Origin: Chryseolinea serpens
Lineage (GTDB): Bacteria > Bacteroidota > Bacteroidia > Cytophagales > Cyclobacteriaceae
Assembly (NCBI RefSeq): GCF_900129725.1
Contig: NZ_FQWQ01000001.1
Coordinates: 1,550,001-1,614,000, forward strand
Direction of reading: 5' to 3'
DNA length: 64,000 nucleotides
Part shown: positions 3,023-30,362 of the stretch, piece after piece
Numbering within the stretch: position 1 is the stretch's first letter
Layout of the letters: every line of letters begins with the position of its first letter
Made by a program: the position numbers and the translations under genes
The notes under the pieces: model-generated
Databases searched by the model: none
The model's input: only the letters and a program-made list of their open reading frames with translations
What the model was told of the DNA's origin: nothing

Positions 3023-4345
3023 TCAGGCGTTAACTTTTTCCATAGCAGGTTGCAATTCCGGCTGGCGTACTTCCAGGGTCTTGGGAAGACTCAACAGGAA
3101 GGCGACCACCGACACGCCCACCACCACCACACCGATGATGAACAGGCTTTCGCGATACGAGAGCGTTTCCGACTTGAAAAGAAATCCCGCCAACACGGCG
3201 CCCACATTTCCACCGGCCCCCACGATGCCCGACACCATGCCGATAGCCCGTTGATTTATAAAGGGTACCACAGAATAGGTTGCTCCATTAGACATCTTCA
3301 GGAACAATGCAAAACCAAGCATCACCGCAATGGCCAAAGGCAATACATCAATGGCAGAGAATAACATCAGCCCTAGCCCCTCCATAAGGAGGAATGCGCT
3401 GAGGATCACGATGCGGCCTTTCAATCCAAACTTGCGACCGGCCTTGTCGCCAAAGATGCCGCCAAGCGCGCGGGCAAAAATGTTCATCATACCGAACAAG
3501 CCGGCGATGATGCCCGCTTCTTTCAATCCCAAATGAAAATTGTCAACAAAATAAAGGGTAGCAATATTGTCGATGGTGATCTCGATGCCGAAACATGCAC
3601 CATAGGCCAGGAACAAAGCCCACACGCGATAGTCCTTGCAAACCGTCAGCAAGCTCTCGCCCGACTTGGCCTTGGCCTTGTAGTTTGGATCGGCCTTCCT
3701 CAAGTCGCTTAGATTTCCGGCGGGTGTATCTTGTGTACAGAAATAATAAACAAAGCCCATGATGAACAACGCCACACCCGGCACCACCATGGCATAGCGC
3801 CACGCGGAAGGTTCGAGATAGCCCATGCCCACGAAAGCGCCAAAGATCAGCGGCATCACGATGAGTGTCACACCGCCACCCATGTTTCCCCAACCGGCGG
3901 CGGTGGCATTGGCCGTGCCCACCACGTTGGGTGCGAACATCACCGACGTGTGATATTGGGTGATCACGAACGAAGCGCCGATCACACCAATGGCAAGCCG
4001 GAACAACAGGAACGATTCATAGCTGTTGCTCAATCCGATGAACATCACCGGCAGCGAACCGGCCAACAGCAAAATGGTATATGAAATGCGTGGCCCGATC
4101 TTGTCGCAAAGCCATCCGAACAACAACCGCGCAAAAATGGTGATGGACACCGAGGCGATGATGATGTTGCCGATCTGTGCTTTCGACAGGCCCAGGTCTT
4201 CGCGCACCACCGGCATGAGCGGCGCAATGCCAAACCAGCCAAAGAAACAAACAAAGAAGGTGATCCACGTAAGGTGGAAAGTGCGCATCGACACACTTTT
4301 GAAGTCCAACAGGTTGATGGAAGTGGAGGGCTGGGTTACTTGCAT
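3023..4345 (-). CDS. narK: MFS nitrate/nitrite transporter (NarK/NNP family)
   Basis: Inner-membrane transporter of 440 residues that brings nitrate into the cell, and may exchange or export nitrite, for the reductase encoded just downstream. It shows the MFS pattern of about 12 hydrophobic segments. The family-typical start region NLLDFKSVSMRTFHLTW supports the ATG at 4345. The NNP nitrate-signature-like stretch GWGNMGGGVTLIVMP lies near residues 145-160, and the MFS loop motif RLLFGWLCDKIGPR near residue 75. A NarL-geometry palindrome lies at 4395-4414 and a degenerate one abuts the start codon, so nitrate-responsive control by the neighbouring two-component system is likely (inference). 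The direction of transport cannot be read from sequence. Confidence 0.93.
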   Translation of the reverse strand: MQVTQPSTSINLLDFKSVSMRTFHLTWITFFVCFFGWFGIAPLMPVVREDLGLSKAQIGNIIIASVSITIFARLLFGWLCDKIGPRISYTILLLAGSLPVMFIGLSNSYESFLLFRLAIGVIGASFVITQYHTSVMFAPNVVGTANATAAGWGNMGGGVTLIVMPLIFGAFVGMGYLEPSAWRYAMVVPGVALFIMGFVYYFCTQDTPAGNLSDLRKADPNYKAKAKSGESLLTVCKDYRVWALFLAYGACFGIEITIDNIATLYFVDNFHLGLKEAGIIAGLFGMMNIFARALGGIFGDKAGRKFGLKGRIVILSAFLLMEGLGLMLFSAIDVLPLAIAVMLGFALFLKMSNGATYSVVPFINQRAIGMVSGIVGAGGNVGAVLAGFLFKSETLSYRESLFIIGVVVVGVSVVAFLLSLPKTLEVRQPELQPAMEKVNA

Positions 4346-25349: not shown

Positions 25350-25550
25350 ATGAACTTTCTCATCTACAGCGAACGGCTAGCCTATCTACACGATCTGGCA
25401 GTTAAAGGCGGATTGAGATCCCCCGAACAATTGTGCGCAAAATTCGAGTGCTCGGAACGAACTATAAGAAGAATGATCCATCATTTGCGGCAGCGGGGCG
25501 TGCACATCGAGTATGATAAAAAGAGAAAAAAATATATTGTATCGAATTAG
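25350..25550 (+). CDS. Small stand-alone winged-helix DNA-binding protein
   Basis: A 66-residue protein consisting almost only of an HTH_11/DeoR-type winged helix: a first helix around ERLAYLHDLAV, the HTH itself in SPEQLCAKFECSERTIRRMI, and a wing with HIEYDKKRKKYIV. There is no effector domain. It lies 62 bp upstream of the terpene-cyclase-like gene on the same strand and is the first gene of the candidate peptide cluster, so it is a plausible local regulator (inference). Short free HTH proteins of this type are common in Bacteroidota. Confidence 0.7.
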   Translation: MNFLIYSERLAYLHDLAVKGGLRSPEQLCAKFECSERTIRRMIHHLRQRGVHIEYDKKRKKYIVSN

Positions 25551-25612
25551 CGGGACATGTTTTGTCCGTCAAAGAAGTTTTCTTAGCGCCTGGAAAAGAT
25601 AATAACGTTACC

Positions 25613-27520
25613 ATGAAATATCTCGTTGAAAAATTCCTGGAAAACCCACGCCGATCATACCTAAAGGAGTCACTGCTGAATTCTGCAACGAACAAGAAGC
25701 ACTTGATCTACTTTACCATTGTTGACGACCTCCAAAAATTGTTTTCGGATTTACCCGAAACCGAGCTACAAAGGCTAGCCTTTATTAACTACAGTTATTT
25801 TAGGGGTGTTCTTCTCATCGACTCCGTGGCCGACGGTGACTCGAATAGCCCGGGAAAGGCAATGTTTGAGGCTATGGCCCTTATAGAAGCATCGCTCCAG
25901 GAGCTGGCGTGGCTAATTGACGCCGATAGCGCATTTTGGCCAAAGTATAATCATTCAAAGACGCAATATGCGCAGGCCGTCATGTTGGAGAAAAAAATTT
26001 CCAGTCAAGGCCCACCGATAGATAAAAGTCTCTTCGAAACCATTTATGAAGGTAAATCGGCAACGCTTGCTTACAACTTGATCGATGCGCTAGATGCCCT
26101 GGGTAAAACTTCCCATATCGAACGGGTGAATTCCCTCAAGCTACTTTTAAAACACATCCATTTGGCCTATCAGTTCAAGGATGACATCGATGACTTCAAA
26201 TCTGACCTCGCAAAGTCCCAATACACGTATGCCATTCACCTGGTCAATTCAAGCCTGCAAGCCCTGGGACATCAATCCGGTAACGACTTCAAATACAAGT
26301 ATTTGTTCACATCTGGAATTGCCCAGACGCTTTTGCAAGAATCCACTCATCATTTCCATCGTGCACTAGCCATAGCGCAGGAGCTTGATCTTAACATGTT
26401 CTGTTCTCATATCCAATCAGAGCTTCACTTATGCCGTGCGCAGGTGTCTGAAATCAATGCTTTGATCTACAAAACAAAGGTTAAGTTATCGAAGAGTTCG
26501 CTTCCTCTATTAACGAAAGGAGCCTCAGCCCTCGACGAGCAATTAAAGTTGTCTATCGAAAAGGCAACAGAGTATCTCTTTCAAAACACCACGCCAAACG
26601 GTCAGTGGGAAGACTTCCTGACCAGCGCCGGGCTAAGCAACTATTGGGTCACAGCCTACACGTATTACCATTTGATCAAGCACAACATAAAAGTACCCTT
26701 CAAACCATCGCTTGAAGGGTCTTTTAACGATACGCTCGTTTCTGATGGCGACACGTTGACTTTTACCATTGCCGCCCTTGCCCTCCATGAGACAGAAAAC
26801 CCCTCTTCGCAGTTAAAGAAGCATCTAGACCAATGGTTATTATTCAGACAGCCGGATGGAGGCTGGGCTACCTATGTCGACAAAGCGATGTTGCGCTCGA
26901 GGCTGAAACTGGACGACGAAATAAGCGTTGCTGGATGGATCCGTTCTAAACCCTGTGTCACAGCGGCGGCCTGCTGTGTCCTCGGCAGTTTTGCTGATCT
27001 CAAAAAAGAAAGAATCGCGGCCGAACAATATTTACTTGCGTGTCAGCATGCTGAAGGTTTTTGGGAATCCTATTGGTGGACCAGCGACATATACGCAACC
27101 TCCTGGGCCATACAAGCCTTAAACGATCGGCCGGGCTACACACAACAGTGTGAAAAAGCACTTTCCTGGTTAACAGGCACCAGAAATCATGAGAAAGGCT
27201 TTTGGAGCGACGACCATACAAATCTTCCAAACCCATTTTACACGGCATTGGCCGTTCAGGCTATTTTGGCCACGAAGAAAAACCTCAAAGATCTTGTTCA
27301 GTCCATACAATGGCTTTTACAACAACAAAAAGTCGACGGCAGCTGGCCTTCGACCCGAATCCTGGCCATCCCAGCAACCAACGTTCTTCATCGCGCCGAA
27401 GTCAAATCATGGCGAAACAGTTCATTTGGCGTGAATACACTTGTTGATGACCACAATCGCATTTTTACCACCGTTACTGCGCTAGGCGCTCTGTTAGCAT
27501 GGAAACACAGTCATTCATAA
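25613..27520 (+). CDS. Isoprenyl-diphosphate-synthase-like domain fused to terpene-cyclase-like domain
   Basis: A 635-residue two-domain protein; the ATG at 25613 is chosen, as an upstream TTG gives no recognisable extension. Residues about 30-290 look like a class I isoprenoid enzyme: the first aspartate motif region VLLIDSVADGD has D70, D74 and D76, and the second, YQFKDDIDDF, has D190, D191 and D194, followed by SDLAKSQYTYAI. Residues about 300-635 look like a terpene cyclase/prenyltransferase alpha-barrel. They have a DxDT motif (D378, D380) where class II cyclases have DxDD, and QW-like repeats DGGW (415-418), EGFW and DGSW (575-578). ComQ, which prenylates a Trp of ComX, shares the first fold. 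The overlap with an M50/RRE gene and the precursor-like peptides downstream suggest peptide isoprenylation, but a free terpene product is also possible. Confidence 0.72.
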   Translation: MKYLVEKFLENPRRSYLKESLLNSATNKKHLIYFTIVDDLQKLFSDLPETELQRLAFINYSYFRGVLLIDSVADGDSNSPGKAMFEAMALIEASLQELAWLIDADSAFWPKYNHSKTQYAQAVMLEKKISSQGPPIDKSLFETIYEGKSATLAYNLIDALDALGKTSHIERVNSLKLLLKHIHLAYQFKDDIDDFKSDLAKSQYTYAIHLVNSSLQALGHQSGNDFKYKYLFTSGIAQTLLQESTHHFHRALAIAQELDLNMFCSHIQSELHLCRAQVSEINALIYKTKVKLSKSSLPLLTKGASALDEQLKLSIEKATEYLFQNTTPNGQWEDFLTSAGLSNYWVTAYTYYHLIKHNIKVPFKPSLEGSFNDTLVSDGDTLTFTIAALALHETENPSSQLKKHLDQWLLFRQPDGGWATYVDKAMLRSRLKLDDEISVAGWIRSKPCVTAAACCVLGSFADLKKERIAAEQYLLACQHAEGFWESYWWTSDIYATSWAIQALNDRPGYTQQCEKALSWLTGTRNHEKGFWSDDHTNLPNPFYTALAVQAILATKKNLKDLVQSIQWLLQQQKVDGSWPSTRILAIPATNVLHRAEVKSWRNSSFGVNTLVDDHNRIFTTVTALGALLAWKHSHS

Positions 27521-28677
27521 AAGTACTGAAAGATGTCTCGGTACACCCCTTCGACAAAAGCCGGTGGGTGGCTTCCACTCCCGGGGGAAGAAATTTCCTC
27601 ATCAATGAAAAAACTTCATTACTCTTAGCAACCTTAAGCAACTCATCAAACGCTGAAGAGGCGTGTAAAAAGTTTAACGAAAGGTCAAAAAATCATTTAT
27701 CGTATCCGCTCTTTGAAGAAATAGCGACGGGATTGGCTAGAAAATTTGATACAAATGGGAACACTGAAAAGGCCGGCTATCTTTCATTAAAAATTGAGTT
27801 ACTAAGTGCCAAGCTCATCGGGCGAATAGCCCAGCCGATTACGCGTGCCTTCCGATTGGTACCATTCCTATTCATCGCCGTGTTCTCATTAACCATAGTA
27901 TCCTACTCATTGGCCACCGATCCGCTTGCACAGGAAGCCCCCGTAACGAATCAGGGCTTGGCTCTTCCTGTTATCCTCGTGTGGTTCTCGCTGTTCGTGC
28001 ACGAACTTGGTCATATTGCGGCTTGCCGAAGTTTTGGGATCAGGCACGGAGGTGTCGGCGTTGGGTTCTATTTTATTATTCCCGTGGTATATGCCGACAT
28101 TACTCAGATCTGGACGGGTTCAAAGTTATGCAGGATAATTACAAATCTGGCCGGCGTGTTTATGGAAGTGGCGTATGCTGCTGTGCTATGCCTGATGAGT
28201 CTGTACAGTAGCAATCCTGTTTATGTTTCGGCCGCCCTTGTCATTTGCCTCAAAGCGCTCCTGGAGCTCAACCCATTTGTGCGATTTGATGGGTACTGGC
28301 TGCTGTGCGACATTACCAATACACCTAACCTGATGAACCGGGCGACGTTGCAGTTAAAATCCGTTTTTCAGTGGCCGCCTAAACTTCAGCCTTCGATGAC
28401 TTCGTTACTGATTTTCTGCTATGGCGTTGTCAATTATGTCTTTGCCGGTGCCTACATGGGATACATTCTTTCTACGCACTTCGTATCCGTCATAGAATTC
28501 CCCCAACGACTATTTCTAGTTGTGCGAAAAGCGCTGCTTTGGGAACTTCAGTTTACCGATTTGAAACAGGAAATGGTTCTGTTGATGCTATTCTATATTT
28601 TGATTTACAACACCCTGAAGAGAATTATCAGGTCTCTTATAAAGAAACAGCTGTCACCAAGAGGATTGTTGGAGTGA
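27499..28677 (+). CDS. M50-family metalloprotease with N-terminal PqqD/RRE-like region
   Basis: A membrane zinc protease-like protein of 392 residues. The zinc site is HELGH (H168, H172) with the third ligand probably D264 in NPFVRFDGYW, the pattern of YydH/SkfC-type M50 proteins found in peptide-modification clusters. Residues about 12-82 precede the first membrane helix and resemble a PqqD-type winged helix (RNFLINEKTSLLLATL, then EEACKKFNE), the fold used as a RiPP recognition element. About six hydrophobic segments follow from residue 118. The start codon overlaps the end of the cyclase-like gene by 22 bp, so the two are translationally coupled. Its likely job is to bind and cleave the small peptides encoded downstream (inference). 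Confidence 0.8.
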   Translation: METQSFIKVLKDVSVHPFDKSRWVASTPGGRNFLINEKTSLLLATLSNSSNAEEACKKFNERSKNHLSYPLFEEIATGLARKFDTNGNTEKAGYLSLKIELLSAKLIGRIAQPITRAFRLVPFLFIAVFSLTIVSYSLATDPLAQEAPVTNQGLALPVILVWFSLFVHELGHIAACRSFGIRHGGVGVGFYFIIPVVYADITQIWTGSKLCRIITNLAGVFMEVAYAAVLCLMSLYSSNPVYVSAALVICLKALLELNPFVRFDGYWLLCDITNTPNLMNRATLQLKSVFQWPPKLQPSMTSLLIFCYGVVNYVFAGAYMGYILSTHFVSVIEFPQRLFLVVRKALLWELQFTDLKQEMVLLMLFYILIYNTLKRIIRSLIKKQLSPRGLLE

Positions 28678-28731
28678 GATTTTCTTGTGTGAAAACGAAT
28701 AAATCATTCCGAAACTTTAAATTTAAACAAG

Positions 28732-28893
28732 ATGGAAAGTAAAACCGATGTATCGAAAAATGAGCACCTCGAGCTGGCGAAGGCTTTTGCCGTTGAAGAG
28801 CTTGAAGAAAGACTCGAATTTGGATCGTGGAGTTTGTCGGCCGAGGCCAGTTCGAACGGAACGGCCACGGCCAAAGCAACCTTCACATTCTAA
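28732..28893 (+). CDS. Precursor-like peptide 1 (53 residues)
   Basis: A 53-residue open frame starting at ATG 28732, 54 bp after the protease gene. From residue 15 to 50 it aligns without gaps to the peptide encoded next: a charged leader-like helix EELEERLEFG (22-31), then S-W-S-LSAE around Trp33, then SNGTATAKAT (41-50), ending F-T-F. It has no Cys, and the C-terminal half is rich in Ser, Thr, Ala and Gly. Two adjacent paralogues with a conserved acidic first half and a small polar second half next to an RRE-type protein are typical of RiPP precursors. The real cleavage site and any modification are unknown; Gly31-Ser32 is one candidate boundary. Confidence 0.75.
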   Translation: MESKTDVSKNEHLELAKAFAVEELEERLEFGSWSLSAEASSNGTATAKATFTF

Positions 28894-28934
28894 AGAATCA
28901 AAAAAAGTACTAAACATCTAATCTAACATTCAAA

Positions 28935-29099
28935 ATGGAAAATCAAATCAAACAAAAGGAAACAACGGCAATCGATCTTGCAAGAGTTTTCGAGATCGAA
29001 GAATTGGAAGAGAGACTTGAGTTCGGAACCTGGACGCTTTCTGCTGAAGGCAACTCAAACGGAACGGCCACCGCCAAGGCTACCTGGTCCTCTAAATAG
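28935..29099 (+). CDS. Precursor-like peptide 2 (54 residues)
   Basis: A 54-residue open frame from ATG 28935, 41 bp after peptide 1 and clearly its paralogue. It has identical EELEERLEFG at 22-31, T-W-T-LSAE with the conserved Trp33, and identical SNGTATAKAT at 41-50, then W-S-S-K. Residues 1-14 differ freely between the two, as do positions 39-40, while 41-50 are identical, so selection acts on both the second part of the leader and the putative core. Position 51 is aromatic in both (Phe or Trp). A hairpin follows directly after the stop codon. Confidence 0.75.
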   Translation: MENQIKQKETTAIDLARVFEIEELEERLEFGTWTLSAEGNSNGTATAKATWSSK

Positions 29100-29108
29100 T
29101 TTCTTAAT

Positions 29109-29131
29109 GGGCAGGATGAAAATTCCTGCCC
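29109..29131 (+). terminator. Hairpin after the peptide genes (weak terminator or processing stem)
   Basis: An 8-bp stem GGGCAGGA/TCCTGCCC with a 7-nt loop, starting 10 bp after the second peptide stop. It is followed by CCTTTCAAA rather than a clean T-run, so it may only partly terminate. It could raise the yield of peptide mRNA relative to the gene downstream. Confidence 0.55.
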
Positions 29132-29156
29132 CCTTTCAAATACAAAACAATGACTT

Positions 29157-30362
29157 GTGAAAAATTACATCAACCTCCTTCTTTTCATCTATCCCACATG
29201 TGTCTTCGGGCAAATCACCATTGAAGGTACCGTGCAGGACAGGCAAAACGCCCCGGTCGCCTATGCCAGCATCAGTTATGTGAATGGAAAAGGGGGCACC
29301 ATTAGCAACGAATTGGGGCAGTTCGTGCTTACCGTTCCCGCATTGCCTGTCGAACTGGAAGTGTCGCATGTGTCCTTTCTGAGGAGCAGCTATACGGTGC
29401 AAGATCCGGCACCAAAGATCACTATCTTTTTGGAACCTGCCGTTCATTACCTGACCGAAGTGACCGTCGATGGTAACGAAGCCGTGAGCATCATAAAACA
29501 GGCCTACGACCGTGCCGTGCAAGACAAACAAGTCTTTCAATACGGCAAGGCATTCTATCGTCAAACATCATTCGTAGATTCATCGCCGATCGAATTACTC
29601 GAAGCCTTCTACGATACTCGTTTCACTAACAATGGCATCGACACCTGGCGAATAACGCAGGGACGGTTTGCTAAAAGACCCATCAAGGGAAGCCTGGACT
29701 TTCTAAATTTTTCGGCGTACACCTCTCTTTCCGGAGTCTACCAGGAAACATCCAAAAAAATTCTTCTGCCCCTAAGCCGCGAAGGGCTCAATCAATACGA
29801 CTTCGAGATCACAAATACCTACAATGCTGAAGACGGTGACCTGGTGGCGATTACCTGCAAGCCCCACCCCACGCTAGCGAAGCCTGCATTTGAAGGTCTT
29901 CTCTTCATCGACCGCAAAAGCAACCGAATCATGAAAATGATCGGAAAAGTGGCATTAGGAAGCCAGGGTGTAGAATTGACATTCAACCACAAGCCGTTAC
30001 CCTATCAAAACCTGGTGCTGACTACCGAAATCGTATATCAAAAAACGCTTGCAAGCCAATTCGCCCTGTCGTACATAAGAATGGGGCTCGAAGTTACTTA
30101 TACCATAGAAGAAATAACACACACCGCATCGGCCAGATCCCTATGCACGGTCTACACCTATGACGCCTCCTTGAGCAATTCCCGATTCAAAAAAGTATCG
30201 AAAAACACAAACGACCTAAAGACAATCAAAGGCGCTGGGTATAATGCAGCCTTCTGGAAGGACAATCCTATTGTCAAGCGCACGCCCATTGAGCAAGGAA
30301 TTATCGAATCCTTCGAGGCAGAAGGTGCTTTTGGAAATTATCAGCCAGGCGATCAGGATTGA
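29157..30362 (+). CDS. Secreted CarboxypepD_reg-like domain protein
   Basis: A 401-residue exported protein beginning at GTG 29157, the first possible start after an in-frame stop. The signal peptide is MKNYINLLLFIYPTCVFG. A CarboxypepD_reg-like beta-sandwich (about residues 20-100) contains GTVQDRQNAPVAYASISYV and NELGQFVLTV. The remaining 300 residues are a beta-rich region of unknown function, seen with this domain in many Bacteroidota surface proteins. It is the last gene of the candidate peptide cluster. It could be a self-protection, receptor or export-linked component, but sequence alone does not tell. Confidence 0.7.
   Translation: MKNYINLLLFIYPTCVFGQITIEGTVQDRQNAPVAYASISYVNGKGGTISNELGQFVLTVPALPVELEVSHVSFLRSSYTVQDPAPKITIFLEPAVHYLTEVTVDGNEAVSIIKQAYDRAVQDKQVFQYGKAFYRQTSFVDSSPIELLEAFYDTRFTNNGIDTWRITQGRFAKRPIKGSLDFLNFSAYTSLSGVYQETSKKILLPLSREGLNQYDFEITNTYNAEDGDLVAITCKPHPTLAKPAFEGLLFIDRKSNRIMKMIGKVALGSQGVELTFNHKPLPYQNLVLTTEIVYQKTLASQFALSYIRMGLEVTYTIEEITHTASARSLCTVYTYDASLSNSRFKKVSKNTNDLKTIKGAGYNAAFWKDNPIVKRTPIEQGIIESFEAEGAFGNYQPGDQD

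Follow-up and report, generated by a model that had tools for sequence, protein, structure and literature searches.

What is encoded by two short tandem reading frames of 53 and 54 codons, here called A1 and A2? The frames lie in a 64,000-nucleotide stretch of Chryseolinea serpens DNA (the window), and a preliminary description made from the peptides alone had guessed at a small core behind an acidic leader and at a modified Trp, naming neither enzymes, protease nor family, with the surrounding operon not part of its reading. This guess is now supported by the neighboring genes and by relatives in other genomes, and A1 and A2 are very probably the precursor genes of a RiPP operon.

Both frames were found on the plus strand where they had been placed, each with an ATG start. 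Within the gap-free match claimed for residues 15-50, 28 of 36 positions are identical (30 identities over residues 1-53), and the BLOSUM62 score of A1 vs. A2 is 157, compared with a best of 34 among 20,000 shuffles, thus ruling out a chance likeness. The stretches EELEERLEFG, (S/T)W(S/T)LSAE and SNGTATAKAT are common to the two peptides as described, and Trp33 is fixed in the pair. Two further remarks held for the pair but not for the family: Cys, absent from A1 and A2, occurs in 13 of 30 cores, and the aromatic at position 51 (Phe in A1; W51, a second Trp, in A2) is Leu in a paralogue on another contig. The comparison of synonymous with non-synonymous changes that had been proposed showed that A1 and A2 differ mostly at third codon positions; because differences at codon positions 1, 2 and 3 number 4, 6 and 23 over residues 15-50, with a dN of 0.148 and saturated dS over the same residues, the data indicate that A1 and A2 are coding genes under purifying selection. 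This codon-position pattern favors the plus-strand frames, and overlapping frames on either strand were set aside. For the precursor of a Pedobacter pair (L018/L021), dN was 0.016 and dS 0.32. A Pfam match of A1 to the TscA antitoxin (E 0.042, 14.5 bits vs. a cut-off of 27) was judged to be spurious, and A2 had none; no Pfam model reached its cut-off on the 2 precursors and no NCBIfam model did so on 5.

The two frames are the fourth and fifth genes of a six-gene run on the plus strand (25350-30362), with spacings of 11, -22, 54, 41 and 57 bases, the order being a small HTH protein, a 652-residue protein, a 392-residue membrane protein, A1, A2 and a 401-residue CarboxypepD_reg protein (see table). 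Relatives of the HTH gene adjoin the fusion gene in L011/L023, L013/L029, L019 and L080, while a relative of the CarboxypepD_reg protein, the N-terminus of which resembles a signal peptide as judged by eye, was present in 13 of the 22 loci of the contig scan described below. Simple promoter and terminator scans were near shuffle level (10 vs. 8.0 and 8 vs. 7.1), and the Bacteroidota -33/-7 pattern had no match upstream of the operon.

Table. Features of the six-gene run, in window coordinates.
Feature	Position	Strand	Basis
Small HTH protein, 66 aa, first gene of run	25350..25550	+	Pfam HTH_11 E 4.6e-6
Fused prenyltransferase (P)/class II terpene cyclase (C), 652 aa, TTG start	25562..27520	+	MstE E 3.5e-23
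P domain, residues ~40-305, trans-prenyl-synthase fold	25679..26476	+	Profile, Foldseek
First Asp-rich motif D87-x3-D91	25820..25834	+	Invariant in 23/23 aligned fusions
Second Asp-rich motif Q204-xx-DDxxD211	26171..26194	+	D207, D208, D211 in 23/23; Q204 in 21/23
C domain, residues ~322-652, MstE-like class II terpene cyclase	26525..27517	+	Sequence, profile, Foldseek
D395-G-D397	26744..26752	+	D395, D397 in 22/23 aligned fusions; absent in L027
Intramembrane site-2-type metalloprotease, RRE-like N-terminal domain, 392 aa	27499..28677	+	NCBIfam, Pfam, model
RRE/PqqD-like domain, residues 3-87, three strands and three helices	27505..27759	+	VIA Z 5.8-7.0, moderate evidence
HExxH zinc motif H168-H172	28000..28014	+	H168, E169, H172 in 22/22 aligned relatives
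Second metal-site motif N258-P-x4-D264	28270..28290	+	D264 in 22/22; N258, P259 in at least 90%
Precursor peptide A1, 53 aa	28732..28893	+	ATG start; gap-free pair alignment, codon pattern
A1 leader motif EELEERLE, residues 22-29	28795..28818	+	Conservation among 30 precursors
A1 Trp33, proposed acceptor	28828..28830	+	Trp in 30/30 cores
Precursor peptide A2, 54 aa	28935..29099	+	ATG start; gap-free pair alignment, codon pattern
A2 leader motif EELEERLE, residues 22-29	28998..29021	+	Conservation among 30 precursors
A2 Trp33, proposed acceptor	29031..29033	+	Second Trp = residue 51
CarboxypepD_reg protein, 401 aa, GTG start	29157..30362	+	Pfam CarbopepD_reg_2 E 2.4e-9

In profile searches, the 652-residue protein matched MstE at E 8.2e-54 and its best trans-prenyl synthase at E 5.2e-5; its predicted model had a pLDDT of 88.3. 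As a single sequence the P domain matched trans-prenyl synthases weakly (Pfam 18.7 bits vs. a cut-off of 27); its profile matched 4jxy, 4lob and others at residues 133-216, and Foldseek on the predicted model retrieved 3aqb, 4jyx and 2dh4 with E values in the 1e-4 range. The C domain of the same model matched MstE in Foldseek at E 6.7e-17, with D397 aligning to MstE D109, which is mutated to N in 6sbe and to A in 6sbd; at the position of MstE Y157 the window fusion has Arg.

The 392-residue membrane protein (predicted model pLDDT 88.1) matched Pfam Peptidase_M50 above cut-off, and its best NCBIfam model was daptide_HExxH (E 1.1e-25), at 90.6 bits under the cut-off of 300. Foldseek on this model yielded no match under 0.001; with VIA-align, a site-2 protease fold was recognized at residues ~100-375 of the predicted model (Z 9.5-9.8). 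The N-terminal domain matched 5wgg, 6jx3, 5sxy and 5v1u over 73-82 residues (Z 7.0 for 5wgg, 6.0 for lasso B1, 6.0 for PqqD and 5.8 for TbiB1 with leader), values in the 5.8-7.0 range where chance matches are possible according to the warning of the tool. A Pfam PqqD match was found in 2 of 22 relatives of the protease. There is thus moderate evidence, from the model, for an RRE-like domain that would fit the conserved leader.

Based on gene layout, domain identities, catalytic motifs, the conserved Trp, co-occurrence and purifying selection, as read from sequence and predicted structure, and by analogy with ChrPC/NctPC and the daptides, we consider it likely that the P domain prenylates Trp33, that the C domain cyclizes the chain on the peptide and that the RRE-bearing protease removes the leader. 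We surmise the following steps: 1) the leader (residues 1 to ~31, with the motif EELEERLE) would recruit the maturation proteins; 2) the P domain would place a long prenyl group, probably C15-C20, on Trp33; 3) the C domain would protonate and then cyclize this prenyl chain on the peptide; 4) the membrane protease would bind the leader via its RRE-like domain and cut near residues 30-32; 5) cleavage would free a core of ~22 residues starting close to the modified Trp; and 6) the secreted CarboxypepD_reg protein would probably handle, display or respond to the product outside the cytoplasm. What we infer in this scheme is that Trp is the acceptor, how long the chain is, that it is cyclized, where the leader is cut, what the last gene does and any biological activity. 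The predicted cut near residues 30-32 would fall where the preliminary description had expected peptide fragments to begin.

The proposed functions were weighed against related loci. A scan of genome contigs yielded 24 loci, 22 of which (L015-L036) carry the fusion and two (L037 and L038, left out of the counts) the cyclase part alone; the pairs L011/L023, L012/L028 and L013/L029, which lie on equally long contigs, hold the same genes and each was counted once. With further loci from relatives, the enzymes total 31 fusions, the one in the window included, and three P-only proteins. Titles of the scan loci are those of Bacteroidota except for L031, titled Zambryskibacteria, which may be mis-binned.

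Variation in the cyclase half bears on a reading in which P prenylates Trp33 and C is a structural or binding partner, the product being a linear prenyl or a ComX-type ring-closed Trp. We regard this as unlikely. It gains from two Hymenobacter plasmids on which a P-only enzyme is followed by the protease and Trp-bearing precursors, and from a fused protein of Hymenobacter piscis (L027, 6980-8956) with no DxD motif at the corresponding position and a cyclase half that may be inactive; against it, all but one of the 23 aligned fusions retain the catalytic Asp of their C domain, and five further fusions (L074, L075, L077, L078 and L080) carry a DxDD-type motif instead, as read by eye. These five scored 42-73 bits against the MstE-type C profile vs. 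249-363 for the others. Because the DxDD label, set by eye before tree building, requires at least two changes on the P-domain tree, cyclase partners seem to have been exchanged among the fusions. The P-only plasmid genes (L081 5947-8274 of NZ_CP040937.1 and L082 6001-8597 of NZ_CP053909.1) are annotated as encoding hypothetical proteins.

The choice of Trp as the acceptor in our preferred pathway was examined with 30 distinct precursors from the scan loci, the window, the orphan locus described below and the loci of relatives, with starts set downstream of the ORF start for L013, L015 (two) and L027 (two). Conservation in these peptides is concentrated in the leader, with F19, L24, R27 and E29 invariant and E22, E23, E25 and W33 present in at least 90%. 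Trp occurs in all 30 cores and nowhere among 838 leader residues. A second alternative holds that the fused enzyme acts on another core residue (Ser, Thr, Tyr or Cys), Trp being kept, e.g. for recognition. While Thr, Ser and Gly abound in the cores, no residue except Trp is found in all 30 of them (Ser in 28, Thr in 27, Gly in 26 and Cys in 13), and the characterized trans-IDS-like peptide prenyltransferases, as covered in section 9 of a review (PMC13290415), all target Trp. Once the phylum loci were added, Trp was present in the core of 43/43 precursors from genomes with a fusion, with the first Trp 3-8 residues past the leader motif in 39. A leader-only profile, blind to Trp, found no Trp-less precursor among frames of up to 130 residues at the loci supplied to it; the 30 precursors from which it was built are recovered by construction, and its next match (E 0.16) also contains Trp. 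A single locus, L079 (G367; 132-830 and 3271-4221), clearly departs from the Trp rule and also speaks for the second alternative; here a P-only enzyme lies beside two Cys-rich, Trp-less precursor-like frames, the first of which may be cut by the contig start; a different acceptor residue is possible at this locus. For the fused enzymes as a group, we consider a non-Trp acceptor to be very unlikely. In L075 (3319-4364; G414), six precursors stand in tandem, and Trp follows the leader motif by 3-4 residues in each.

The position of Trp may also vary with a residue of the enzyme. The Gln before the second Asp-rich motif is missing in 3 of 34 enzymes (L033, L036 and L072), which are the three with Trp far from the leader (3/3 vs. 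0/28), near and distal labels having been set by eye before the tree was built. Recognizing that these enzymes form a single group on long branches (support 93/85, not starred), we think that absence of Gln together with a distal Trp may be one event, or else a false join, of which the tree program warns. Gln at this place is common in ordinary trans-prenyl synthases too and is therefore no proof of Trp specificity. A link of this Gln to Trp recognition is drawn in the relevant part of the review (PMC13290415).

The gene set is also kept across loci. In all 22 scan loci, fusion and protease genes are direct neighbors, the protease gene of L016 being truncated where its contig ends, and 20 of these loci yielded a precursor; in the other two, L016 and L017, no precursor was found, and the contigs end in or just after the protease gene. 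Among 146 relatives, five match the 652-residue protein at E 1e-8, with G139 doing so in the cyclase half alone, and strong precursor matches (E <1e-10) occur in exactly the four with full fusions; the tally of four with both and none with one alone holds when full fusions and strong precursor matches are counted, and weak precursor-profile matches (E 0.003-0.04) occur in three relatives lacking the fusion (G122, G046 and G031). Among 395 genomes of the phylum at E 0.001, the fusion profile has matches in 11 and the precursor profile in 9, with 8 genomes having both, three the enzyme only (G192, G195 and G367) and one the precursor only (G464, E 8e-4); these counts derive from scored candidates, which in many genomes were a part of the first-look candidates, and the co-occurrence has a Fisher p of 1e-13 with kinship ignored. 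Local profiles revealed precursor-like frames in two of the enzyme-only genomes, G195 (E 8.7e-6) and, with a weak E of 0.034, G367, and G192 has a cyclase-only stretch with a stop. Because five other genomes of the window's genus harbor neither fusion nor precursor, the system is sporadic in its distribution, as judged from the genomes compared.

A stand-alone MstE-like cyclase gene was observed in a short gene run of G139 (L014, 9055-10170), a genome in which a profile search found no member of the precursor family. A third alternative, in which the product of the fused enzyme is a small terpenoid in free form and the peptides belong to an unrelated leader/protease system beside it, might be suggested by this cyclase-only gene and the small-molecule substrates of MstE and drimenyl-type cyclases (from structure titles). 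It is very unlikely and the least probable reading, given that many genomes have the combination of precursor, fusion and protease and that gene order differs between loci while the set is kept.

Twelve loci were added later, and the protease is present in 10 of them (absent in L071 and L076). The precursors found at related loci are open frames, free of the stops or frameshifts in both frames that the preliminary description had named as counting against it; breaks were seen in neighboring enzyme genes of some relatives, with a stop interrupting the fusion gene of L071 (4049-6037; G158) and the protease gene of L073 (3207-4395; G214) lying in two overlapping frames, which reflects either decay or sequencing error.

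Some clusters carry additional genes. Radical SAM proteins follow the protease in L036 (10077-12677), L033 (10038-11444) and L032 (10045-11394), identified by Pfam in L036 and by similarity to L036 in the other two, and L036 also has a cytochrome P450 after the protease; because of these genes, the peptides of such clusters may undergo extra modifications. MauE/DoxX-type membrane proteins are encoded in L015 (10957-11862), L020 (11610-12047) and L024 (11653-12576), as judged by Pfam in L020 and L024 and by similarity in L015. The cores of these three loci hold 2-4 Cys, which suggests disulfide handling; other loci with Cys in the core are devoid of MauE/DoxX proteins.

The genome of the window harbors a third precursor on another contig (L003, 12388-13957, contig C8), with a CarboxypepD_reg gene of its own downstream, which has 49% identity to that of the window, and a 41-residue remnant of a protease gene upstream. 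No fusion gene lies beside it, and only one was found in this genome. A decarboxylase-like gene further upstream, recognized by eye, was not counted in, with the protease remnant lying between. We surmise that the locus is probably an old partial duplication; its intact leader suggests that the orphan peptide may be served in trans.

How does this operon relate to known systems? By analogy, the window locus is filed with the already known kind of RiPP in which a fused enzyme yields a cyclized isoprenoid, as with ChrPC and NctPC. Hubrich et al. in 2024 are said to have reported on fused prenyltransferase-terpene cyclase maturases and cyclized geranylgeranyl groups. Two such fused enzymes are named in the part of the review that treats them (PMC13290415): ChrPC, whose trans-IDS-like P domain uses C10-C20 donors on an internal Trp and whose C domain cyclizes the prenyl, and NctPC, with C20 transfer, an MstE-like C domain and a P domain of alpha-beta-beta-alpha fold. 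Measured against that account, which for ChrPC was a comparison by description and not by sequence, leader type or protease, the window enzyme resembles both in joining prenyltransferase and class II cyclase in one protein and in the Trp in the core of its co-encoded precursor; its P domain, which has the trans-IDS fold and the two Asp-rich motifs, is like that of ChrPC and unlike the alpha-beta-beta-alpha fold of NctPC, while its C domain is MstE-like as in NctPC. MstE itself shares the fold and catalytic Asp of the window C domain but is a single domain and, from structure titles, acts on a prenylated dihydroxybenzoate. Among the full-text passages covered by our literature search, which did not extend to that of Hubrich et al., we recognized no description of these Bacteroidota loci.

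In daptides, according to the portion of the report that deals with maturation (PMC10036551), an RRE-fused intramembrane peptidase removes the leader and ELExMEAP stands directly before the core; an intramembrane M50 protease in epipeptide maturation, as the corresponding part of a second report has it (PMC10885120), is a further precedent. The window operon, as far as that portion goes, may be daptide-like in the joining of a putative RRE-like domain to an intramembrane site-2 protease, with daptide_HExxH below cut-off, and it has an EL(E)-type leader motif directly before the core, a motif similar in kind only. It differs in that 1) ELExMEAP is absent, EELEERLE being followed by F/M/N/T and others; 2) there is no invariant C-terminal Thr, A1 ending in Phe and A2 in Lys; and 3) the proteins of the run 25350-30362 include no decarboxylase, aminotransferase or methyltransferase, with a prenyltransferase/cyclase instead. 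With ComQ/ComX, as the review describes it, the operon may share a trans-IDS-like enzyme, compared by fold and not with the ComQ sequence, that acts on the Trp of a short ribosomal precursor; it differs in the fused cyclase and RRE-protease and in the lack of a receptor kinase family among the operon proteins scanned. The protease is also related to YydH/LiaK (EpeP-type; NCBIfam E 3.8e-15, 56.2 bits, below the cut-off of 225), but no radical SAM family, as in epipeptides, was found among the same proteins. On these features, we did not class the operon with the daptides, the epipeptides or the ComQX systems.

What appears to be new is the wider pattern of exchanged cyclases, P-only plasmids, a shared leader and protease, and an orphan precursor. 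We tentatively raise the possibility of a RiPP chassis centered on Bacteroidota, in which a common ELE leader and RRE-site-2 protease would be combined with swappable cyclases (P partnered by an MstE-like cyclase, a DxDD cyclase or, on plasmids, none), with the place of Trp tracked by a P residue and orphan precursors served in trans by a distant locus. The attachment of ring-forming terpenes to ribosomal peptides has come to light recently, and to this chemistry the window and its relatives add 31 fusions and three P-only enzymes, most of them with precursor genes small enough for size cut-offs to miss. These loci offer natural comparisons, i.e. two cyclase types or none, a near vs. a distal Trp, and Trp vs. 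no Trp, which bear on the choice of acceptor and on the product of each cyclase, and such leader-guided enzymes might be redirected by changes in the core.
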